NCBI GenBank assembly: GCA_963924555.1
Contig: OZ004596.1
Coordinates: 1,736,001 to 1,800,000, forward strand
Direction: 5' to 3'
DNA from: Crambe crambe
Lineage: Eukaryota; Porifera; Demospongiae; Poecilosclerida; Crambeidae
Length of the DNA stretch: 64,000 nucleotides
The translations under genes and the position numbers were made by a program. Under the pieces are notes generated by a model that saw only the letters and a list, made by a program, of their open reading frames with translations, did no database searches and had not been told where the DNA came from. Below, piece by piece: positions 3,101 through 60,100 of the stretch. Positions within the stretch are counted from its first letter, which is position 1, and each line of letters begins with the position of its first letter.

Positions 3101-6100
3101 ATCACACTCCTACCGAAGCCAATGGCAGGCAGGAAATGAGGAAAGGTCCAAAACGTCTCGTGATTCATCAGCACCTCCTGAGCACTTTCAGGAATCCTCA
3201 CAGGAGTACCAGAAGCTGCATGGTCAAAAAGATAGATATGAAGTTTATCGACATCAGCTATAATTAAAGACTTCAGGTAGAAACATTATCTAACCTTTAA
3301 CTTTGATTAAATATTTCTTTAAATATTTTGTTAAAATATACTGTTCAACTGTATTGGAATTTATCTTTGGTGTGGACTATCTCCACACCAAAAATATGAG
3401 CTCCAAAGTAATCACGAGTTATGGAGAGCTAAAAAAGTGAATGTGCCTGATTTCTACTTATTTATTAATGTCTGTATGTATACCTGCCACTAATTTCACT
3501 GCATCGCTGTTGTGAGGGTCCAGCTTGCTGATGATCTCCAAGCCTTCATTGATGGTGGGAATGCCCCAGAGTCTACTTTGCACATCATCTGCACATACAT
3601 GGAAGCAGAAAGAAACAAAGGAAGTGATTGAATTACTGTGGTTGGGTGGGTGTGGGGGGTAACATGAACTAGGTGCGAGGTTATGGTAGGGATAACCCCT
3701 TCTCTTTCTCACCTCCAGAATCCAAAGCATCTTGTCTCAACTTATCGAGTTCTTCCTGCAAGAGATAGACAATGCATTTGCTGGTTTGATGAAAGCTTGA
3801 AGGCCTTGCATATCTCTATATATATAGCTTGTATGCACTCACCACAGCCTGTGCAGCTAACTGGGACACATGGACAAGAGAAGGCTCGAATCTTGAGAGC
3901 ACAAAAGTTTGCATCAGTAGCTGATAATGCTTCAAATGAACAAAGGAAATATCATAGTATTGTGAATTACATGGAAGGAGTGAGTAAAGGGATCATCTCA
4001 GTAGCTATTTATGGACTTCCTATAGTTAGAAGTATGCATGGTTTGTTTCCTAATCCTAATATGTTGCTATAGCTACATAGTGATTATAGTTATTGCCAAA
4101 TTGCAGTAGAACACACTCTTGGCAAAATTAACATTGCTGTTTTGATTGCTATATTAATTATTATGTAATAGTATACTAAAGTGCAGCCACACACATATAA
4201 CCACACCTGCTGTATCTGGGTGTGAAGTTGGACAGTCTGATCTACTGTGAGGTAGTCTTGAGTGCCTTGCTGCTGCAGAGGCTGCTGCAGATTGGTGGGA
4301 AACTTGCTACCAATCAGAGACCCTGTGCTCTCAGGTGCCGACTGCTGGACGGGTGCTGCATTTTGCAGCAGCAAAGACTGCAGTCTGGAACACATTCCAT
4401 AATTCATATGATATGCATGACAGGGGAATTCCCATTATATGAATATGGGTATAAATATACCACTACATCAAGAATAAATAAAACCAAAGAAGAGCAATGG
4501 CAGAAGGTAATGGTGAGTTATGAGTTAGTAATTGTACTGTGATTGTCCATAAGCATGGAATACTCTATCCAGTAGCTAGCTATAGATGATACTAGGGAAC
4601 CTGTTTCATGTGGGTAAGACCTTACTTAGCTTTCTTATAATGTGTCTTCGTTGTCCAAGGACAATACCATGTATGAGAGGGGCCTACCTATAGCTTTCTT
4701 TACATGGTGGCAACATCAAGCTTCAGGGGCCAGACCTGTTGCAGCATTTAGACAGGCAACTGTCTGAGTGCTTTAGCTTTGCAGCAATATGTATACATTC
4801 TATAGGACAGCTATCATGAGTGTCTTAGCTATACATCTATGTCAACTATCTGAGTATATCTTCAAAATAGCTATACCTATACGTATGTCCCATAGGAGAA
4901 CTGTCTATGGAAAGTTTAAGTGACGTCCTGGAAGGAATCTATGAAGCCAGTTCCAAGTGGTACAACCTCGGGCTACGCCTTGGCCTCCTGGCTTCAGTGC
5001 TGGATGCCATCAGCACACGGTGCCTGCAAGACCCAGAGGTTTGTCTCCGAGAAATGCTCAAGGAGTGGCTGAAGCGCAACCCTCAGACCACGACATGGAA
5101 GGTTCTGATTAGAGCACTAGAGAGCACTGCTGTAGGTGAACTAGTACTTGCAAAACACTTGAAAACTAAGCATTGTCAGCAGGATCCAGATCAAGGTCAG
5201 AATATAGCTTTAAAGAAACAAGTGGGTAAAGCATTCGGGGGGAATCATATTTCTTTCTATCCTTTCCCCCTAAAGCATTGATCATGCAGATCGTAGTCAA
5301 AACACCACTGGTCCATTTGTTTACACTATGTTAGAGGAGCAAATCATAGTATGCACACATACTATGTATATGAAACATGTATGTAGGTGCTGGAAACATC
5401 TCTTGAGAGATCAGTTCTTCCTTAATCCCCCCCATGCAAAGTTCTATAGTTCTAGCTATCATAGTCCTTGTATAGTATCACACATGACACACATGCCATA
5501 GCCAAATTTGGTGCTTTCATTTGTTGCTATACCACTGCAGAAGAAGATGCCATGCCCTCAACACCGAGACGCAGTGAAGAGTTAGAGTGTAGTACTGAAG
5601 ATGGTATGGTTAATTCTGCATGGACTCATTTATATATAGAATCATTTTAGGTCACTTTTTCACACTTTTAGCTATCAAGGATGGTGAAATAAGTCCTGAC
5701 GTATTCCGCAAAGCATATTCAGCATCAAACTCTGACCAACACTCAAGCGACACTTCCAATCTCAAGGACCAATTCATGATCCTCCAGGCCTATGGCTGTG
5801 GCTGTGGAAAATGCAGCTTGAACACGTTCTTAAATCAAGGTTGCCCAGAGCCTGTCAAATCACGGAGCTCTTTCCCTTATCTCAACACCAAAGGACTGAA
5901 CGAGAGTGAAGTGATGATCCTTAAGGGAAGACTCTTCCACGAGTTTCAGCTGATATCCAGAGGCTTTTCAAAGTTTAACACGGCAATCTGTGAGTCACTG
6001 ATCAATCGAGATGTTTCGGTAAAGACCCTGGCCCGAAGCCTGCGTGATTTGAGAGCATTTCAGCCATCTGGTCCCGATACGGACAGCCCCTTACTAAGAG

Positions 6101-9100
6101 AAAGGTTCGACGAGATCAAGGCTGCAAAGGACATAGACGACATTTTCGATATCCTAGCCGACTACGTGTCATTCTTCAGTTTCCACATTACAGAACATAT
6201 AGTGGATAACTTAGGAACTCAAGAAGACAGGCAGCTGCTGAATCAATATAAGAAGGAATTAGAAGAGTATTGCAAAAGAAACATCTACGAGTGTCCTTCG
6301 TACTCTGCACCCAAACCAGGTGTAGCTGATCTGATGCTGAAAGTGGAAGGGATTGAAAAGTACAACCTGAAGCACCTTGCTGAGTTGATATCATGCATAT
6401 CTAGAGTTGTATCCGTGGCAGATTACACATTGCAGCTGTGCAGTGTGGAAAAGGGATGCGTGCAACTTAACTTCCAGATTCCACACTTTGTGAAGGAGGC
6501 AATCTTCCCACTAGCTTCAGAACAGATGGAGAAACTGAAGGATATGGACATTATCCTTGTGCAGTGCAGCAAATGGCAATATAAGGTTTGAGTTGGGATA
6601 GCTATGTAATTGAGTTGGAGTAAAATTACTGAATCCATTGATCCCTCATTAGCTATTAACTTTCTCAATTCTTAAAATTCCAAAAAAAAATCAAAAACAA
6701 CAACAACAACAACAAACAACAACAACAAACAACAACAAACAACCAGCTAATATCAACTCTCTGCTAGTGTGTTTTTAATTAAATATAAAGTTAGAGCAGA
6801 TATAGTGAATGGTCATGGGTTAACTCCATGGACATTCAGCTTAGTCTAGTTTCAGCCCCCTTTCCCCCTTGTCCATATAATAATACAAACAAGCACCAGG
6901 GAAAGTTTATTGATGAAAAGAGTCTAGCACATATAATAATATAAACAGAGAAGCACCAGGGAAAGTTTATTAGGATCTAGCAGCTAGACTACACTGTGGC
7001 TAGGCTTAGACGCATTGGAAGGACTCCATGGCTGTGTATAATAAACCTTTCTCCCTTTTATAGTTATCAGAGAATTACAAGCCAGATTCCAAAGTTAAAG
7101 ACACCTCAAACAGTGCCAAAGGTATACACTTGTACATTAAGTATACAGAAAAGCAGGTCAAATACCATTGACATGTGTGTGAGATGGACCTTCTGAAATA
7201 TAACTATGTATGTTATATAAGCTATGTACACAGTTTGTGTAGGTGAAACAACACAAAGGCTTGACAGTGTTCCAACATTCACTGGAGAAGGTCCAAAATC
7301 AGTCCCACATCTAATTCTGACCAATACTGAAAGTGAGTTAACTATTGCAAGCAGCTACACAGTTCCGTCTCATTGAAGTGAAAATATGCATAAATGATGA
7401 CATGCAACACACACCACCTCTTGTTGTGCAAGTTTTTATAATCTAGCCATGACACACACAGAACACACACTCCTTATTGTGCAAGTCTTTCTAACTTAGT
7501 CATCAACACACACACCTCTTGTTGTGTAAGTCTTTCTAACCAATTACACTTTAAGGGGGAGGCATGGGCATATGCATACTTTGAATTTCTAAATTGGTCT
7601 TGTGAATCTGTGCAAACAGCCAGAGACGGGATTATATAATTTCTGGTCGATTCTTTACCTTATCTGGTCAGAAAATACTAACATGCAGGTGTTACACATG
7701 TCCAGTAAACAACATATACTTCTCTTATTTGAGGACTTCCTGTTTTAGATAAATCGATATCTGATCATGGGCGAATCTCGAGAGAAGTTTCTGAGCAGAG
7801 ATTGAAGTCAGTAGGCTATGATTGTTTCCTCATAAGAGAAAGCGAGAAGGTTAAGGACTGCCTTGTTCTTTCAGTGAAGCAGAAAGGAAAACTGAGTCAT
7901 GTATTGATTAATCGAACAAAAGATGGGTTTGTGGCACGAGGGGAAGTAACACCTTTCCCAAGAATCGAGAGTTTGATACTGCATGTGACCAACTACCTCC
8001 CACCATGCCCAGCACCAAATGCATCAGGTACATAAGAATAGACCACATAATTTCACGACTCATTAATTTCCATTACTTGATAAGATTTTGTAGTATTAAT
8101 AAGAATCTTGTTGGTTTAAAATCTTTTCACCAGTACAGCATCAAAGTACTCCCCCAATCCCTTGGACTGTATTATCTTATTATGTGTGACTTTAATCATA
8201 CAGAAGGTGATTCAAAAACACTTGAACCTCAGAGGAACTCCCAACAAGCAAGGTAATTATGCACACACACTGAAGGACAGAGTTGGAAAAAGAAATCACC
8301 ACTTCTCCATGAGGCAGAATTTTATGTAGCATTATGTTCAGTGTAGCCATACTAGAAATAGGCACAGGGATTTATATCTTATTTGCAGTAGTCAGGATGC
8401 AAGTGTTGGTGAAGCTACCCTGAGCGACTATGGTAGTGACTACAGCATTGATGAATCAGGGGAGAATACTGGAGATTGGTCAGGGACAGGAGACAGCGCT
8501 GTGGTCCTCGGGAACAAGCTTTTCCCACCTCTACTCCCTCCTCCTAAACACGCGGCAAACTTGTATGAAAAACTCCAAATGGACAAGAGGGACAAGGAAC
8601 ATCACTACAGCAAAATTAGGAAGGAGGAAATGTATGAAACATACATTGACATCACTGATGCAATCAAACAGAAAACTGAAGAATCGAGAGAGCAGGAGAA
8701 AAAGAAGACCACTACTTCTCCACCAAAAGGAAACATTTATGTGAAAATATAATATTGTGAATGATTGTTCTGTGTATTCATTTTTTTAACAATTAAATTT
8801 TGGTCAAGAAACGAGGAAGTGGATTGAGGAAGTTGCAGCAGTCAAGGTGGATGATGAATAGATTTATAGCTTCACATGCACATGGTTGCATGGGCACATT
8901 CAGTAAAGGCATGGACCATTACATGCATAGAAGTGAACACTAACCCAAGAGACTGAAGTAGGTAAGCGCTGGTCAGGTCCACCCCATCAGGAGAGAGCAA
9001 GCCTCCAATGCCACCAGCAGACTAGAAAGAAATGAACACAATCATATGTACTACAAGTACAGAAGAAGTGCATGGTAATCCCCCCACCCATTAAAACAGC

Positions 9101-14179: not shown

Positions 14180-24007
<9,828 letters not shown>

Positions 24008-25290: not shown

Positions 25291-25648
25291 CTATATCCGA
25301 GCCAACCGTAGGCTAGCAGATATACGTACATCTTTGCACTGCAGCTGCTGCTTTCCATATAACCACATGTTTTTATTATAGAAACGTATCTGCGCATATA
25401 AAAAACTCATACCACTTGGCAATGCGCAGCCATCCTAATAGTAACCCACAATCATAACAAATCCCAGACGGCTGGGAGGTAATCTTGTTTGGGGCGGTCT
25501 TGAGGTTTCCAGGAAGCGCTTTTGAACAGGATAGTGAGGTCAGACAAATGCGATTTAACTTTATAAACAATAGATATGATGGTACTATTTTTTTTTGACA
25601 TAAATAAACACCACAAAAATAGTGCAAAAAATGGAATTTCATGTATAG

Positions 25649-28600
25649 CAGCTGGGTAAGCATTGTCGGGTATGTGGTAGGAGACTGAGCAAGGCAAAGG
25701 CAAGCAGAGCTTCAGTGCACCAGTGTTCTGATCACCAAACTGATCTATTCACTACCTTTGGGGTGGATATCAGTAATGACAATCAGTTTTTCCCCCAAAA
25801 ATTCTGCAATCCTTGCTATGCTATCATTAAACGGGCTTTGCAGGCTCGGAAAAATGAATTGCCTTACACCCACACCATCACCCCCTTTGTATGGACAGAA
25901 CATACAGATAACTGCCTGGTAAGAACAAACCATCTCAGATAGCTAACTAAAATTTTATAAACACAACGTGTGCTAGGTTTGTTCGCACTTTGAGAGCCTT
26001 GCCCGAGGTGGCGGCCAGAATAGAAAGGACGACGCTAGGCACAGAGGACGACAATCTGGAGAAACACCACGGGCTGTGCTACAGCATATTAGAAGCATGG
26101 CACAAGCAACATCACTATTTCCGGATGACGAGGCAATCCCAGCTACTTCATTATCCCTTGCAGAGAAGCTTTGCTGCCCTATACGATCTTTGATAGACCA
26201 CTTGAACTCTCCTGTGGTGCTACTGTGTGCATAGGTTGTTGCTGTAAGTGGATCCAGACATCACCCACCCTCTCCTGCCCTTGCTGCTACAATCACACTC
26301 TTAGCAGTTCAACAATTCATCCTGCGTCACCTCTTATAGTTTCAATGATTGAGAGCCTTGTCGTTAACTGTAGGAGGAAATGTGGCAAGCTAGTGAGAGT
26401 TGACCAATACAAAAATCACATTGCAGGAAACTGCAAAACCCATTATCACAGCTGCATAGACTCACCCTCAAAAATGGCCATCAGTGATGTTCTAGCTCGA
26501 CCCACTACAGCACCAGCAACTCCAACGGAATTGAGAGCAGCAGAGCACCTAGTACGAAGGATGATGGATCAGGGTACCAGTAGTGAAGAGAGCCAGGGAA
26601 TAGTGAAGGTCCGAACTCGTGGTCAGGTAACCAACCTGAATAATTAATGTAGATGTATCATTACTTGAATACAATAATACACAGCCAATTACCTTGGTAC
26701 CAGTCACTGGATGTAGAGTGACCAGTTCTGATGCTAGCAAACGAACTCTGAAGCGGCGTACCGAAGGAATTGACAGGGTACGATCCATCACTAGTGGGGG
26801 TGACTCAGGTGCACAGTTTGCAGCAGAGGTACAGTCCCTCACGAAGGCTGAAAGGGAGGCATTGCTCCAACAGGCACAACTGCCCATCGTAATCCCCACT
26901 GAGCAGGCATTGGCTATGAAAGCAGATCTTGGCTTACCATGGAATACACTCAGGATCCTCAGGAGGTAGCTCTAATCAATGTAAAGTTCCAAATAAAGCA
27001 CACTCTGAACATTCATCATAGATGGTTCAGATGCCATAAAATTTCCATTGCCAGTGAAGGGAAACAGAGAGCGATGGCACGTAATGTTGTAGGAGATAGC
27101 CTGGTTGCTGAGTTGGGTGCCTTTACTTTCCCAGTTGACAAAGGGGAGGAAATCAGAAAGGTTCCCTTTGTGTATTACCCCAACTTCATTGCTAAAGTGG
27201 CAGACATCATTCACCAACATGAAAGGTAGGCATTAGTATCAAGGATAAACACACTGTTATCAAGATAAACATACCTAGTTCTCCAGCTGGTTTGACATGG
27301 CACAATGGTGCCATTCCTGATGATGAGTTGTGGGTCAAGTTAGGGGGTGATAAGGGCCGAGGAAGCTTCAAGTTCAATATCCAGCTTGTGAACACCAAAA
27401 CCCCCAACTCAATGAAGAACACTGCACTCTTGTCCGTATTCAAACCTGGAGACAGCTTAACCAACCTGCATACATCCCTGGACATGTACAGGGACCATAT
27501 CCAAGAGGCACAGGGAATGAAGATTAAGTATGAAGTAATGTAATCGAAATTAATATGGTTATTAATTTAGTATACAATTTAGTGGACGTAAACTTCGCCT
27601 ATTTCTATCTGGAGATTATGAGTTTTTGTGCAGAATATATGGGCTCAGTGGTGCCAGTGGTAGGTATTTTCCTTTATCTTAATTCAATACATAAACAATA
27701 CTTACATTTAGGTCGTCACAACTGTTTATGGTGCTTAATAACCAGCAGCAGTTTGAAGGAACCTCTGGCGAAGCGTGGGAAATCAACCCCCAGATCACTT
27801 CAGTCACTCAGGCAAGACCATAACAGGTTCATGTCAGCTGGAAATGGAGATCTGAAGCAGGCCAAGCTGTACAATAACGTAATCAGGGAGAATATCGATC
27901 TATTCGATATTCCTTTGGAAAATGTAGGATAATAATGAGCATGCATAACATAATTAAATTTACATACTTCTAGGTTTGTATACCTGGTCTGCATCTCTCA
28001 CTGGGTATCTTTAACCGGATATGGTCCCTGTTAGAAGATGCCTGCATCAAATTAGACCTCAAGTTGGCCAAGTCTGACAGTAGAGGTGGTAGCTCTTTCC
28101 ACGAATACTCCTGTGCTCTCCAACGGAAGTTACTTCTGAGAGCTGAGTTAGAAACTTTAAAAAATTACACCACACACATAGAAGAGATGGCTACGTACCT
28201 CTCTTTGACACTACCTGATGCTGCTATCCTTGGAGAGCTGAAGAAAGATGTAGCTGCTACTCAACACAGGATTGATCAACTGGTATGTGAGCACAGATAT
28301 AAAGCTACTCTTGCCATTGACTGTGTGCTGAATGAATAGTCCACAGAGATTGTACAGATTGATAAGACCCTGAAGAAAGAGCCACACGATGGACCCTTCT
28401 ATTCAACACTGGAGAAGTCCCTGGACGAGCTGAATGTGAAACGCCAGGCGTATCAGGGGGGTACATTTGTTGGCAATCATGTCCACAAACTGCTGAAGGT
28501 AATCCTCCCTCAACCAACCTTGCAGGTGCAGACAGTAACTTCATTCTGTAAAAATCTAGTCAAATAGCATCAGTATTCTCTGTGAGAAAATCAGCAAGGC

Positions 28601-28906
28601 TGCAACCAATCACCCCCAACTCGAGAGTGATGCTGATAAAGTGAGCAAGAACTTTAGAGCCCTTCTGCAGTACTTCTCAAAGTGCCATAGTGGGTACAAC
28701 TCATCTACCTACATGGAGGATGCAGAGATTGATGAGTTGGGTATGTGAAACAAGAGATTATTTTTTTAAAAATATTATGCTTGCACACAATCCTCCAAAT
28801 ACAGAAAAAGACATCAAAACATTCTTGGATTATTACCGAGTCACTTTCCCAGAAGCAACAATACTCCCCAAGATGCATATTCTGGAGGACCACACAGTTA
28901 TAAAGT
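25649..28906 (+). pseudogene. transposon-derived gene with RAG1-N-terminus-like zinc/RING region (N-RAG-TP-like), decayed
   Basis: Exons: 25649-25918, 25977-26626, 26685-26965, 27022-27225, 27279-27527, 27583-27659, 27712-27923, 27974-28282, 28340-28498, about 28568-28740, about 28806-28906. Most phases agree. The first two exons carry, in the order of vertebrate RAG1: CRVC, FGVDIS, KFCNPCYAIIKRAL, FVWTEHTDNC-LVC, then a RING-like block (KLCCPI, SCGATVC, LSCPCC) and a following CGKLVRVDQYKNHI zinc motif. The remainder (TWHNGAIPDDELWVKLGGDK; LFLSGDYEFLCRIYGLSGAS; GRHNCLWC) matches a protein family repeated in invertebrate genomes, which I take to be transposon-borne; it is not the RAG1/Transib DDE core. 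Breaks: a frameshift inside the RING at about 26181-26186 that removes its second cysteine, a phase problem at about 28568, and no C-terminal exon after 28906. I compared with RAG1 from memory only. Confidence 0.7.
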
Positions 28907-29815
28907 AAGGATACAAAGAAAATATGATGAGAATAAACAGACATGTGGAATCAACAAAACATTCCCTATATAGCTTAATACAAGACATTTTTGCCTCGGT
29001 ACCGAAGTGCCGAGGCGCAGTGCTGGAGGCGACTATGTGTGCGTGGTACGTACGTCCTATTAGTAGCTCGCACAAACGTATGCACGTGACCTTGACCTTA
29101 CAGTCACGTGCACAGCTCAGCAGTTAATGATCGTCTGAGGGAGCAAGAAGACAAGCTGAAAAGCGAGAGCAGATCCAGATGGTACAAAGCTCAAGATTTT
29201 ATGATCGTATGAAAAGGCAGCAAGAGAGCCTACAAGAAAGTTAAATAGCAAGAACAGAAGCTACAAAGTCACTAGAGTAGTAGGCAAGTTAACAATCGTA
29301 AGAAAGCAGAAAGAGAGTCAAGCAGCGAGAGCAGAGGCAGTAGGCAAGTAAACGATCTTCTGAGAAAGTACTGGGAGCAAGAAAACCAACATGAAACAGG
29401 AAGAGTAGAGGGTATAAAGCTCAAGATTCTAAAAAAGCAGCAAGAGAGCCTACAAGAAAGCCTTAAATAGCAATCAAGAACAGAAGCTACAAAGTCAGGT
29501 TAAAAGTCCTGAAGAAAAGCAGAAAGAGCCAACAAAACTAAGCAAACAAGCTATAGCTAGCCACTAACTATATTAGTTTGCTACAGCATAGAAAGTCATT
29601 GACATGCATGTAAAATAAGATCTTCAGTCTTCAGTATAATTATAGCTATAGGTAAGCACAGTGAAAAAGTAATCAGTGAAAATCAAAGTAATAACAAGTC
29701 ACATGCCGAGGCATCAAGTCTTTTTAAAGACAAACTTGTGGAAGTGGAGACCCCGTACCGTGGTCTGATAGCGTAGACTGTAGAGCAGCCACCCGTACTG
29801 AATTCATAGGCAACA
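28907..29815. other. A-rich noncoding stretch with short inverted repeats
   Basis: No open frame of note. It contains a hairpin-capable pair TGCACGTGAC / GTCACGTGCA at about 29079-29112, a GCCTCGGTACCGAAGTGCCGAGG palindrome at about 28993-29015, and direct near-repeats of CTACAAGAAAG and GCAAGAACAGAAGCTACAAAGTC at 29230-29270 and 29449-29495. It may be transposon debris. Confidence 0.4.
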
Positions 29816-33288: not shown

Positions 33289-36200
33289 CTAATCTTCGTT
33301 ATCACTAGTGGCACTATCTCCCTCCAGTTCTTTCATTTGATCAAACCAAGTTGAGAGTGGATCCATTGTAAAAGGCACGTTACTCCACTTGCGCACTAAT
33401 TGTGGCTGTCCTTTTATTTCGAAAAGAAAGCCAGTACATTTGATGATGGGGAACTCATTGCCGTTAGAGGGCCAGGTACACATTACTCCCCAGTCTTGCT
33501 CACACTCGGAACAGTGAACCTTGTGGGTCTTAATTGCTTGATCCGCAATGACGTGCTCACGTTTCTTGTGTTCCTTCAACTTGATTTTTTTCTTGAAGTC
33601 AGGCCTGGGTACAACATGATGAAAGCTGTCTTCACCAATGGTGTAAATATCAGGTCCAGAGCAAGCAACCGTTTTGCACTTCTTGCAACGTAGCAACACA
33701 TCTTCAGAGTTGTGTGTTCGTTCCCTCTTCCTCTTTAGCATCACCTTTTGCTTCCTTTTTTCAATGATGGAAGCTTGGATATCAGCGAGTCTCTTCTCCA
33801 AGTGTTTTCCTGTTGGGAACCAGTCACACTCCAGAATCTCTTCCACTAATTTGAGCAGCTCTTCATTTTTCATCTCTTGGTATTTCTTTTTAGAATCACC
33901 ACGAAGGATAGTGAATCCCTGGCTATTGTCAGCCCTGGCTCTCCCTTCTGCCTGCTTTTTTGCAATTTCATTGGACACGTGTAGAAATCGGATGACGAGA
34001 TTGCATTCAGGCACATCGAGCCCTTCTTCTGCTACAGAGGTGGCAATCAAGAGATTGATTCTACCTTTATGGAATCTACTCATAACCTCTTCTTGTTTCA
34101 TCTGAGTCATCCCTTCATCAGATTTACGAGTGTGGCCAGTAATCACATCAGGGGTGATCTCCAAGCTCTTCAGTGTTAGATTTTTACTTGCCCACTTACA
34201 TAGAGAAGAGGCATGCTTCTTAGTACGTACGAATAAAATGGCACGTGAATTCGGGCAACTTCCAAAAGCTTCAGAGAGAATTTTCTTGAGGTCATTCAGC
34301 AGGGGATTTTCTGTAGGAGGGATACCTTTTAGCTCTTCGATGAGCCTTCTCGTTTTGTATTTCAAGTCCTTCTCGTGAGGTGTGGCTTTAGAGTCATCTT
34401 CCATGAAACCAGGATATTCTTCCAATACTTCAATAGCGTCACTCTGCTGTAAATCCATGTATGCACTCAGGGCATTGCTGTAGCGTCGTAGCAAGTCCAG
34501 GGTACCAATCTGATCACGAAATTTCGGATCTTTGCTCAACATGAGAGGCTTCTTGAGTTGTTCTTGAACTTTTGTCTCGTATTCCTGAGACCACTTTGAA
34601 AGGTGGCAGTTCTCCATGCCAACTTTAAGTTCTAACTCACCCATTACATCTTCAATTTTAGCAATGAATGCATCAGGGTCACGTGGTTTCAAGATCTTTC
34701 GTGTGAAGGATGAACTCTTGGAATATTGTTCCAACTCATCTCTATTATCGATAACAGTCTTTATGCCGCCAGTGGCATCAAGTAGAGCAGCTAATGTTAG
34801 CAGATGATCAAGTGTTTTCTTAGTGATTAGAGTGGGGTTGTCACCAGCTCCTGGTGAAGCAGTCATTCCAATCACTTGTGGAAGATGGAGATCGGGATTT
34901 TCATTGTGCTGCTCTAATAAGCATCCCATGACTTCAGCATAAGCATGGGCTTTTATTGTGTGGTGGCACTCATCCATGATAATCAAGCTGAAGTCTTTGA
35001 AATTGACCGTACTCTTTCTGACTTCATCAAGAAGTTTTCCAGCAGTGCATACACTGATGTTATTTGCCTTAATGGAGTCAGTTATGCGGTTGTTAGTTTT
35101 TCCAGTGTAAACCTCCACTCTAGCTGCTGGTATGAGCTTGTCTAACTTTTCCTTCTGCTCCATTGCAAGTGTTCCAGTTTCAACGATGAAGATTACATGG
35201 CAAACTGGAAATCGTTGATACTTCTGAAGATGGTCGGAAATCACAAGAGCAGACACTAGCGTTTTTCCGCTCCCTGTTGGTGCTATGATGATGTAATTTT
35301 TACCCTCTAATCCTGGCTTGGCTAGTTCTTGTTGGTAATTGCGCACAGCATGTCCATCTTCAAGTTTTACAGAGTAATCAAAGAAATATTCTTCACCATC
35401 AGATGCTCCTACTTCAGGATCTCTTTTAGTTGGTGGGACACTAATTCCAGGAGGTATGGGAAGAACTGGGGGAGGACCAGGCATCAAATTTTGCCCAATT
35501 TGGGCATCTGAATGAAAGAGAAGATGAACTTTCTAGATCTATTTTGTATAGTTACTAACTTGCTAGCTAGAAACATTCTGCATCATAAAATATATATAAA
35601 TTAACAGCCGTGACTAAAAGTAAGGATTCTGAATCAGTTTTCAATGGGCTACCTTTTGATACCTAAATTGTAGGTACTGAAAAAGTGTCCAGTAATTGAT
35701 TTGATTGATCACTTATTCTAATTGCCTGGTGGTCAATGAATCTCATTAAGCATTAAGTGCACGTACATCATTAAAGCAGGTATCTGAAAATCAGACAAAA
35801 GTATCATAATTATTTCAGATGGCTACCAATTTATGGCAGAGTTTTCCGTCAAAGTTGTCCTTCCCCTATCTGTCTCCATTTAAAGAAGTCAAGCTTCAAA
35901 TATCACTGCAATGACAAACCTGAACTTAAGGCATTTTTAGGTAATCGGCAAAAAAATGGGGTAAGTTAAAGTTTTAAGTCCCTAAAATAAATGTTACTAT
36001 TGTTACTGTCATGTTTTTTCTATGATCTGTAGGTGTCAGCTCTCAATAGCCATGAGAAAATGTGAACATGTTGGAACTGTTCATAGTTTAGCTATGAAAC
36101 TTGTTACAATAGGCAAAAAGGGCTGATTCCACTTGTAGTTTGTATTGCAATGGTATTTTGACTTCTATAAAATTTAATAGAGACACAGATAAGGGAAAGA

Positions 36201-57100: not shown

Positions 57101-60100
57101 AGCCTTCTTTTTGGGGGGTTGGGGGCCTGGTATCCACTGTGCGCCAATACAATTAATAAACGCTCATGCGATGACAAGTTTTAACGAGATTGAGAAGTGC
57201 TAAGTGCAATCTCATGCATGATTCCGAGAATGCTTAGATCCCAGAAGTAACAAGGGCTTCAGGGGCACAGAAGAGAAGGTTATCTGATCTAAGACTGGCA
57301 GATGTAGCGAGGTAGTACTGGCCACAGCGTCATTGGACGATCGATCATCAGAGCAACACAACCAGTACTGTGCTACACTTACCAGCATTATCATGAAGGG
57401 GAGGTTCTGGTAACAGAGACTCTATAACCAGTAGGTGGACGAACAAAAACATCCTTCCCATCGTAGACTGCCTTGACAGCTATGCGTTGTTCCTTCTTCT
57501 GGAATGCAAAGTTTCTGCAAGGAGAAACAAAGAGCAGCAGCAAAGGAGAAACGAGGAGCAGCAGCAAAACAATATACTAGCACTGGTTGTGAAAACTGCA
57601 CCCATTAATTATGACAATCGTGTAGCGGAAATATCCAAGTGAATATCCTGATTCCCACATCCGCAAGCAAAAAAAAAAAAAAGGAAAAAAGGAGGCTGGG
57701 TTCAAGGCTAGGGATTATGTGAGGTTCCTAACGTTATAATGTGAGGTTCCTAACCCTCATGTATACTAGAGTGAGGCTCCTAACCTACATACATAGCTCA
57801 ATGGTCTTGATTCAGAGGTTGATGCTGACCTTTTGTCCTATTTCTGTGTGGGATTATTAAGTGCATAGCAGTCCCAAGACATATCTTTTTCTCTCTCTCT
57901 CTCTCTCTCTCTCTTTCTATTGTCCTAAATCCTTGTCATAAGGGTAGCCATGAGTTACGGAGAACTAAATTACTAGGTGGCCCAATGAATGCTAGCTGGC
58001 TATGCCTGGCAATAGCCTTGGGGCTGAGATATTGTAGTATTTATCTCACCCCCAAGGCTATTCAATTGCCAGGCAATCACGAATTATATAAATTACCAAG
58101 AGGTGGCCAAATGAATTGTACCATCACATACATAATATCAAATTTCCCCTCACACAATAATTAGCAACTCATTATATGCAGCCACTACTAATTCCACAAG
58201 TCAAATGGTGCATGAGGTGATTTCCTTATTTGTACAGTTACTTCATTGTACTCCATTGTTTGTTTTACACCTGCCCCCTCGACTCTCCTCTGTCATTCTC
58301 ATCTTGTGACATACATGCATACATACATACATACATACATACATACATACATACATACATACATACATACATACATACATACATACATACATACAGTGGA
58401 GAAAGTGGAGCTGGCAAGACTGTGGGTGCAAAGTTCATCATGCAGTATATTGCCAAAGTGTCTGGTGGAGGTCCTAATGTCCAGGTATGTTGCACAGGTA
58501 TTATTATTCCCTATAGTATAATGAACACCCCATAATGAGATCAAGGTCCTCTCCACTCTGCCTGTACCTTTTTCAACTATTTCAACTTCCCTAATGAGAT
58601 CGCCTCCCTATTAATGAAGGCCACTTGGAACTTCCTGGCCCATAAGGTGGTCACAGTAAGCAGGTTTCACTCATAAAGAGGGTGACCTCATTACAGGGTC
58701 GTCTGATTTCCATTCACTTATCCCTTAATTGGACTATAGTCAGATTTTAATACTATTTCCAAGTAATCAAGTGTCTCTACTGCAGTAATCCTATAAATAT
58801 TTATTGTTGGGAGATGCAATGTTATTGCAACTATGGACTTGAATTTCACATGTCAGAGTATCGATTATTTTGCTAATGTGTGAAAGGGCTGTTGATGATG
58901 TTAGAGCCTCCAAAACAGCATCACCAATGAGAGACCCAAAGTAGTATAGGGTTAGCTTATGTGGCAGTAGCTGGAGGGGATGGACTTGCCAATATATACA
59001 GAACTTAGAGAAGAGTGTAGTTTGTAATAGTGATGTTTCTTTATTCAGCGTGTCAAAGACGTTATTCTTGAGTCCAACCCATTGCTAGAGGCCTTTGGAA
59101 ATGCCAAAACTGTCAGGAACAACAATTCCAGTAGATTTGTGAGTTGCCTAGGTGTTCTGATATGCTTACTGTGTTACATATCATATCTTGTGCCCTTAGG
59201 GGAAGTACATGGAGATCCAATTCTCAAGGGCTGGTCAGCCTGACGGGGGAAAAATATCAAACTTCCTCCTGGAAAAGGTACTGCCCCTTTTTAATTAAAT
59301 TTTAATTGCTTAACTAACCATACCTTAAATACTGTTGCCTCCCTTTTAAATCCAAGAATGCTTGTCTCTGAGCACTTTGGTACCTCTCCTTAATGCTGCT
59401 CCTTCTCTTACATATGTAGTCTCGGGTGGTAGGTCAGAACGAAGGCGAAAGGTGTTTTCACATCTTCTACCAGCTAATATCAGGGGCTGACCAAGAGATG
59501 AGAGGTAAGTATGGTACATAATGTTGTCTAGTTTCTTTGTTCTAACGTCATATAGTAACCAGGTGATCTCCTGTATGTGNNNNNNNNNNNNNNNNNNNNN
59601 NNNNNNNNNNNNNNNNNNNNNNNNNNNNNNNNNNNNNNNNNNNNNNNNNNNNNNNNNNNNNNNNNNNNNNNNNNNNNNNNNNNNNNNNNNNNNNNNNNNN
59701 NNNNNNNNNNNNNNNNNNNNNNNNNNNNNNNNNNNNNNNNNNNNNNNNNNNNNNNNNNNNNNNNNNNNNNNNNNNNNNNGTACTTGAATCAGAGTGGTAC
59801 TTACACAGTGGAGGGCACAGATGACAAGAAAGACTTTGAGGACACGTTGGTGAGTGGAGTATCCTTGAAATGAGGCTATCCCTCTAATCTGGACCCTTGA
59901 AATGGGTCGTCCCAAGGAATGTTTGAATCCATGCTTTATAAATGTACCGCTGAATAAGGCCATCCAGATTTACAGAGGCGTCTCCCTCAATCTGCCCTGA
60001 TTCACCAAAGTGCTTTCGGCCAACCAATTTCATCGCAGCATCTCAGTTTATGGTTTATTTTCTTCTTTTCTTTGCTGCCTCCAGCATGCAATGGAAGTGA

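Follow-up and report, generated by a model that had tools for sequence, protein, structure and literature searches.

An inactive Chapaev transposon copy with a RAG1-like N-terminal module, most likely in a sponge genome

Introduction

The closest described systems to the locus reported here are Chapaev transposons and RAG1. In sections of PMC4411706 (Kapitonov and Koonin 2015), Chapa is described as a part of the RAG1 N-terminus that also occurs in Chapaev and Chapaev3, a RING is placed behind Chapa in two Chapaev subgroups, and Chapa and RING are inferred to have been fused to the core in a common ancestor. DUF1280 is characterized in a passage of PMC3985635 as a family of putative Chapaev transposases belonging to the same clade as RAG1. 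Excerpts of PMC12730594 give C(2)C and H(3-4)H motifs for CACTA, Mirage, Chapaev, Transib, and RAG1, and target site duplications (TSDs) of 2-5 bp for the wider group around Chapaev.

For RAG1 itself, a section of PMC3124419 assigns to residues 87-217 the binding of two zinc ions, a preference for double-stranded DNA, and an aid to nuclear localization, with the zinc dimerization domain coming after these residues; according to a passage of PMC4411706, the RAG1 RING has ubiquitin ligase activity. N-RAG-TP from Aplysia is described as consisting entirely of RAG1-N-like sequence (Panchin and Moroz 2008, as cited in a section of PMC8355894). Two models for the origin of RAG1 are outlined in parts of these sources: an ancestral transposase with Chapa, RING, and DDE parts, whose front disappeared from other Transibs (PMC4411706), or a Transib that recombined with N-RAG-TP (PMC8355894).

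Here, we describe a gene within a window of 64,000 nucleotides, by which we mean the whole stretch of DNA analyzed; positions are those of the window unless stated otherwise. An initial annotation had proposed a RAG1 N-terminal-like zinc and RING region at 25649-26626, within a transposon relic akin to N-RAG-TP. We conclude that a Chapaev element, a DNA transposon of the cut-and-paste kind, very probably left an inactive copy at this locus, that the host is most likely a sponge, and that the single gene of the element encodes a multi-domain transposase.

Results

A collinear gene with Chapa, RING, and DUF1280 parts

The preserved stretch and its exons are listed below with their coordinates, strand, and basis.

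25374..28899 (+): preserved Chapaev stretch with both ends missing; blastn to sister copies
25649..25918 (+): exon 1, first Chapa part with CRVCG, FGVDI, FCNPC, and WxxH; RAG1_imp_bd match, GT donor after 25918
25977..26626 (+): exon 2, end of Chapa (CLVC), basic linker, RING, and third zinc motif CxxxVx4YxxHI; the RING and zinc part of the family matches RAG1
26685..26965 (+): exon 3, where the transposase region begins; AG/GT borders, kept in sister copies
27022..27225 (+): exon 4; splice borders, kept in sister copies
27279..27527 (+): exon 5, DUF1280 with the first catalytic Asp (KLGGDKGRGSF); Pfam PF06918 at 1.1e-11, 45.2 bits, cut-off 25
27583..27659 (+): exon 6, second catalytic Asp (FLSGDYEFL); splice borders, kept in sister copies
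27712..27923 (+): exon 7, C(2)C zinc motif (RHNCLWC); splice borders
27974..28282 (+): exon 8, CIPGLH segment; splice borders, kept in sister copies
28340..28498 (+): exon 9; splice borders, kept in sister copies
28560..28740 (+): exon 10; AG before 28560 and GT after 28740
28805..28899 (+): exon 11, truncated, with the H(4)H motif (HILEDH) present and the catalytic Glu gone; sequence reading, sister copies having GEQGAES

Based on blastn, homology to sister copies starts at 25374 (copy L040) and stops at 28891 (copy L041) or 28899 (L040). Inspection of the sequence recovered all of the RAG1 N-terminal landmarks that the initial annotation had placed in 25649-26626, in the order it gave: exons 1 and 2 contain CRVCG, FGVDI, FCNPC with a basic stretch, VWTEHTDNC-LVC, the RING (which in the window copy is read in the frame of 26129), and then CGKLVRVDQYKNHI, and the intron at 25919-25976 divides the VWTEHTDNC-LVC motif. 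Position 25649 is merely the first base past an in-frame stop codon (25646-25648); position 26626 coincides exactly with the splice border at the end of exon 2, with the donor at 26627 and the next exon from 26685. The extent ending at 26626 was too short, as the gene runs on via nine further exons (26685-28899) into a DDE core. GT donors are present on exons 1-9 and AG acceptors on exons 2-9, exons 3-9 form one open frame, and RAG1_imp_bd and DUF1280 both score over their cut-offs within this one collinear gene. It is this extension past 26626 into the DUF1280 core that changes the interpretation of the locus.

The window core retains GGDKG, SGDYEF, CLWC, and HILEDH and is without the catalytic Glu, homology ending at 28899. 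We take the RAG1 counterparts to be D600, D708, C727, C730, H937, H942, and E962, paired with the sponge motifs by eye.

The N-terminal module and RAG1

Exon 1 by itself matched Pfam RAG1_imp_bd at 2.6e-6 (27.7 bits, cut-off 23.3), and its runners-up, zf-AD (3.1e-5) and FYVE (3.6e-4), were below their own cut-offs; the Chapa part of this exon is a homolog of RAG1 residues ~109-210. Once spliced, the Chapa segment of 107 aa reached 3.2e-8 against RAG1_imp_bd. Searched against PDB sequences with E values up to 10, the same segment matched RAG1 in three sequences (lowest E value 1.7e-5, or 0.0024 for the best single stretch), and the sole other match was one chance hit at 0.59. The reversed segment did not find RAG1 in PDB (best 0.1, a homeobox) and matched no Pfam family up to E 1.

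A RING-free Chapa profile of 10 rows, with the window among them, found RAG1 in PDB at 2.4e-13 and 1.4e-11, the next match being at 0.0063; an earlier version of this profile aligns to RAG1 residues 109-215. Between Chapa profile A3 and a RAG1 fragment, hhalign gave a probability of 98.4% and an E value of 5e-15. The RAG1 N-terminal-like region of the initial annotation is thus borne out by the RAG1_imp_bd match and by the RING-free profile, and the profile search against RAG1 that it had called for returned RAG1 with the RING left out, rather than generic RING hits only.

The RING of the window copy is frameshifted between the frames of 25977 and 26129, and its exon alone gave a best Pfam RING match of only E 0.75; the identity of the RING here rests on sister copies and relatives. 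The model of sister copy L048, described below, had no Pfam RING match up to 0.1; against PDB it matched the RAG1 RING domain 1rmd at 5.5e-5 and BRCA1 at 1.1e-4, and the relative P0038 matched Pfam zf-RING_2 at 4.2e-7. The RING call for the family depends on these PDB matches and on relatives such as P0038. A full-length family profile of nine relatives, window excluded, matched RAG1 in PDB at 1e-14 along Chapa, RING, and zinc motif (RAG1 residues 156-379), ahead of its best generic RING, RNF168, at 1.6e-10.

Sister copies and their ends

The assembly searched comprises 143.1 Mb in 119 contigs, and the place counts that follow are lower bounds. RAG1_imp_bd gave at least 32 matches at at least 25 places (E≤10), 21 of which were over the cut-off alone or with neighbors and 4 under it, and DUF1280 gave at least 23 matches at at least 23 places (E≤0.001). 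Both domains occur no more than 6 kb apart at at least 13 places, and, counting over-cut-off places only, relatives are spread over 12 contigs. The Chapa, RING, and core exons follow in the same order across the sister loci. In a stitched reading, 5 of 20 sister loci show the complete set of five core motifs (D, D, C(2)C, H(4)H, and E, the last in GEQGAES), as does the L048 model; the other 14 sister loci have them partially or are without them.

We picked end pairs by terminal inverted repeat (TIR) sequence alone in 21 loci, and this identified nine end pairs in eight loci, with CAC..GTG inverted ends. The element ends are CACGGGTG or CACAGCCG, depending on family. An exact 4-bp target duplication flanks 7/9 end pairs and a 5-bp duplication 0/9; both failing pairs are distant pairs in a single locus (L042). 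A length of 4 bp is the usual figure for Chapaev target duplications, and 2-5 bp that for the wider group. At L048 the flanks are an 8-base repeat, so the duplication there is either 4 or 8 bases.

The RAG recombination signal heptamer is CACAGTG. The ends of L041, L044, and L048 start with CACAGCCG and have CACAG in common with this heptamer, which may be chance.

The initial annotation had also proposed a search for intact copies and terminal repeats; along with the nine TIR pairs, seven of them with 4-bp duplications, this yielded the uninterrupted copy L048. L048 is a 4,360-bp element (4222-8581 in its own coordinates) with a gene from 4732 to about 8152, modeled as 11 exons encoding 950 aa with no stops; the ten introns, with borders set by eye, include one GC-AG intron. 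In Pfam, the model matched DUF1280 at 1.1e-16 and RAG1_imp_bd at 5.6e-8. Three further copies (L031, L032, and L033) on three contigs are 99% identical based on blastn, which indicates that one family moved recently.

Two truncated copies, L036 and L037, are identical at 99% over more than 6 kb including flanks, a pattern suggestive of either a segmental duplication or a composite repeat of larger size. Places are concentrated on one contig, C3, which makes up 6.8% of the assembly and holds 9 of the 21 RAG1_imp_bd places over the cut-off (10 of 25 when those under it are included) as well as 12 of the 23 DUF1280 places. Most of these (9 of the 10 RAG1_imp_bd and 11 of the 12 DUF1280 places on C3) lie within C3:0.45-3.73 Mb. 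Binomial p values for the enrichment are 4e-6 (9/21) and 6e-9 (DUF1280), with duplicated copies counted as independent.

Decay of the window copy

Both ends of the element and the catalytic Glu are missing here; this copy is dead. The outer 5' and 3' parts of the family had no match in the window at 23-33 kb, and exact copies of two TIR sequences were absent at 20-34 kb. With neither TIR nor TSD, the window copy owes its assignment to Chapaev to its relatives. The description of the locus as a transposon relic was correct, given the frameshifted RING, the stop before exon 1, the lost ends, and the scattered relatives.

Just past the truncated 3' end, at about 28988-29126, lies a repeat of ~140 bp that matches at least 33 other sites with 74-95% identity, and another short repeat (28896-28991) matches contig C1 twice. 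Elsewhere in the window, a 747-aa frame at 33292-35532 on the minus strand, 4.4 kb from the relic, is a RIG-I-like helicase gene with DEAD helicase, helicase C, and RIG-I C-terminal domains. Amino acid permease matches at 17675-18208 and 18976-19497 (+) are probably exons of one gene, and an N run of 200 bases occupies 59580-59779.

Host and relatives

A COX1 gene, in which TGA is read as Trp, is located on a 19.5-kb contig (C119). Among the best 120 of 7,999 COX1 matches, the top three proteins are 89-90% identical, and Demospongiae form the best cluster with a taxon name, at 87%; in the same best 120, their lead is narrow, as cnidarians come to as much as 85%, and Saccoglossus, a hemichordate, is at 79%. 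Based on this narrow COX1 margin and on the grouping of the elements next to those of Ephydatia, the host is most likely a sponge. Contamination of the contig from a bilaterian, which the initial annotation had raised, is unlikely, since relatives occur on 12 contigs.

A first protein search gave 29 transposase relatives, which include 24 from Ephydatia muelleri (10 by name and 14 assigned from 'Em' gene ids), 2 from Antedon, and 2 from Lytechinus. We built a tree of 29 rows from 21 of 39 found transposase proteins, 7 of 20 sister loci, and the window copy. The elements of the searched assembly fall on one side (support 89/91), with one database protein inside; the Ephydatia group (100/99) adjoins them at a joint fork (90/91), and the echinoderm elements are separate (100/98). 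This tree fits long residence in sponges, although with two sponge genomes transfer is also compatible with it. The initial annotation held that a sponge copy would move the module to the base of animals; diverse elements with Chapa and DUF1280, in this genome and in Ephydatia, that group together and apart from those of echinoderms stand in favor of this, and they suggest that the Chapa module lies near the base of animals and may be about as old as animals.

Among literature listings, which do contain texts naming Chapaev, sponge, and transposon, we found no account of sponge Chapaev elements, and the word 'sponge' is absent from the main-text portion of PMC4411706. Because three EukProt 'Em' proteins already carry both Pfam domains, the raw facts were public.

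Discussion

Alternative readings of the locus

It is extremely improbable that the resemblance to RAG1 reflects chance or a generic RING or zinc site. The RNF168 and BRCA1 RINGs likewise match the RING part, and exon 1 has weak matches to zf-AD and FYVE; however, the Chapa profile free of RING finds RAG1 at 2.4e-13 against 0.0063 for the next match, and the reversed control does not recover RAG1. A reading as an N-RAG-TP-type element, in which a RAG1-N-like part alone lies beside an unrelated transposase, draws on the Chapa part being by far the most RAG1-like part of the gene and on such an element being known from Aplysia (as described in a section of PMC8355894). Against this reading, the exon order Chapa, RING, core is constant in the sister loci, both domains lie within 6 kb at 13 places at least, and an open 950-aa model sits inside one TIR pair. 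Single predicted proteins also carry both Pfam domains in 4 of 29 cases (three EukProt 'Em' ids and Antedon) and, in a second protein search, in 6 of 12, Antedon again included. We consider an N-RAG-TP-type element highly unlikely, and the initial annotation erred on this point: here the N-terminal part and a DUF1280 DDE core belong to one gene, and the sister copies end in CAC..GTG and are flanked by duplications of 4 bp. The window element is of the published Chapaev type with Chapa and RING and is not a stand-alone N-RAG-TP.

A true RAG-like (RAGL or Transib) transposon or a RAG1 ortholog in a sponge is less probable still: Chapa and RING together match RAG1 at 1e-14, yet the DUF1280 core yields no RAG1 match in PDB up to E 10, the duplications are 4-bp and not 5-bp, and the 4.36 kb of L048 leave little room for a RAG2-like gene. 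That core exons 3-9 of the window copy are still open could point to a domesticated, Chapaev-derived host gene rather than a relic, but the RING frameshift, the stop codon upstream of exon 1, the absence of the exon 11 end with its catalytic Glu, and the scattering of relatives through the genome make this very improbable.

Proposed working of the transposase

The Chapaev transposase comprises, in order, a Chapa zinc domain, a RING with a second zinc finger, and a DUF1280 core that is very probably RNase-H-like. Chapa is the homolog of the RAG1 central non-core domain and the RING with its zinc finger the homolog of the RAG1 zinc dimerization/RING domain, and the core combines DDE residues with zinc ligands of the C(2)C and H(4)H kinds, which it has in common with RAG1, Transib, and CACTA. 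By homology with RAG1, the protein is predicted to enter the nucleus and dimerize via its zinc modules, its zinc binding being likewise presumed; the core would then bind the CAC..GTG ends, catalyze excision of the element, and insert it with a 4-bp stagger. The RING, if active, could attach ubiquitin to the transposase or to a protein of the host. Of this mechanism, the sister copies document the footprints, namely the ends, the duplications, and the spread.

Origin of RAG1 and a possible likeness to ZAD

A core-only profile of ten relatives, searched against PDB to E 10, matched no RAG1 or Transib chain; its matches were five coiled-coil-type chains (best 0.28). RAG1 chains of 1040 residues, presumably mouse, were present in the PDB set searched. 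As the core profile returns no RAG1, core homology rests on the motifs and on published work. Chapaev and RAG1 thus have a recognizable N-terminal module in common, with the core unmatched. Fast evolution of the core could explain this asymmetry, and a chimeric RAG1 could too. We put forward tentatively, as a doubtful proposal, that RAG1 may be a chimera in which Chapa and RING came from a Chapaev-type lineage predating the split of sponges from other animals and were placed before a Transib-type core, and that the C4 site of Chapa and RAG1 may be a ZAD-like dimerization domain, as in insect ZAD proteins.

Outside RAG1, the Chapa profile has its best PDB match in 7po9, the structure of a ZAD (0.0063), and the 7po9 segment itself matches zf-AD at 1.3e-8, above the cut-off. 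In Pfam, zf-AD ranks directly behind RAG1_imp_bd for both the window segment (7e-5) and a RAG1 fragment (0.0031), below the cut-off in both cases, and at E 0.05 it matches 4 of the 10 A3 rows. There are weak matches to FYVE and rabphilin too, so four-cysteine zinc sites in general may resemble ZAD to this degree. We treat the weak though recurrent similarity of Chapa (25649-25990 in the window) and ZAD as a possible lead, not a result. A literature search returned no text joining 'RAG1' and 'zinc finger-associated domain'. A claim of homology between Chapa and ZAD was set aside, as hhalign of A3 against the ZAD fragment gave 44%, which is too weak.

The elements with Chapa and DUF1280 described here and in Ephydatia supply intact relatives for testing both models of RAG1 origin.

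Comparison with known systems

N-RAG-TP of Aplysia, compared by description only, likewise has a RAG1-N-like protein on a transposon; in the available descriptions it is RAG1-N-like only, whereas the sponge element joins an N part and a core in one gene. In RAGL, ProtoRAG, and TransibSU elements, most new RAG1L proteins retain N-terminal zinc motifs and the RING is missing in several lineages (as described in sections of PMC7204232). These elements differ from the sponge element in their Transib-type core, RAG2L gene, and 5-bp TSD.

Vertebrate RAG1 has its residues ~109-379 (the central non-core domain, the RING, and the adjoining zinc motif) in the same order as the sponge gene, and it has the same set of catalytic motifs, D, D, CxxC, HxxxxH, and E, paired by eye; however, its core is missed by the Chapaev profile, and the Chapaev sister copies have a 4-bp TSD.

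The L048 model is 29-32% identical to two Antedon proteins. Chapaev elements with Chapa and RING (Kapitonov and Jurka 2007, as described in sections of PMC4411706) have the same Chapa, RING, DUF1280 core, CAC..GTG ends, and short TSD. Because the combination of Chapa, RING, and DDE core in Chapaev is already published there, the architecture is known; whereas the published hosts are lancelet, sea anemone, and others, the host here is most likely a sponge, and the sponge host is the addition made by the present analysis.
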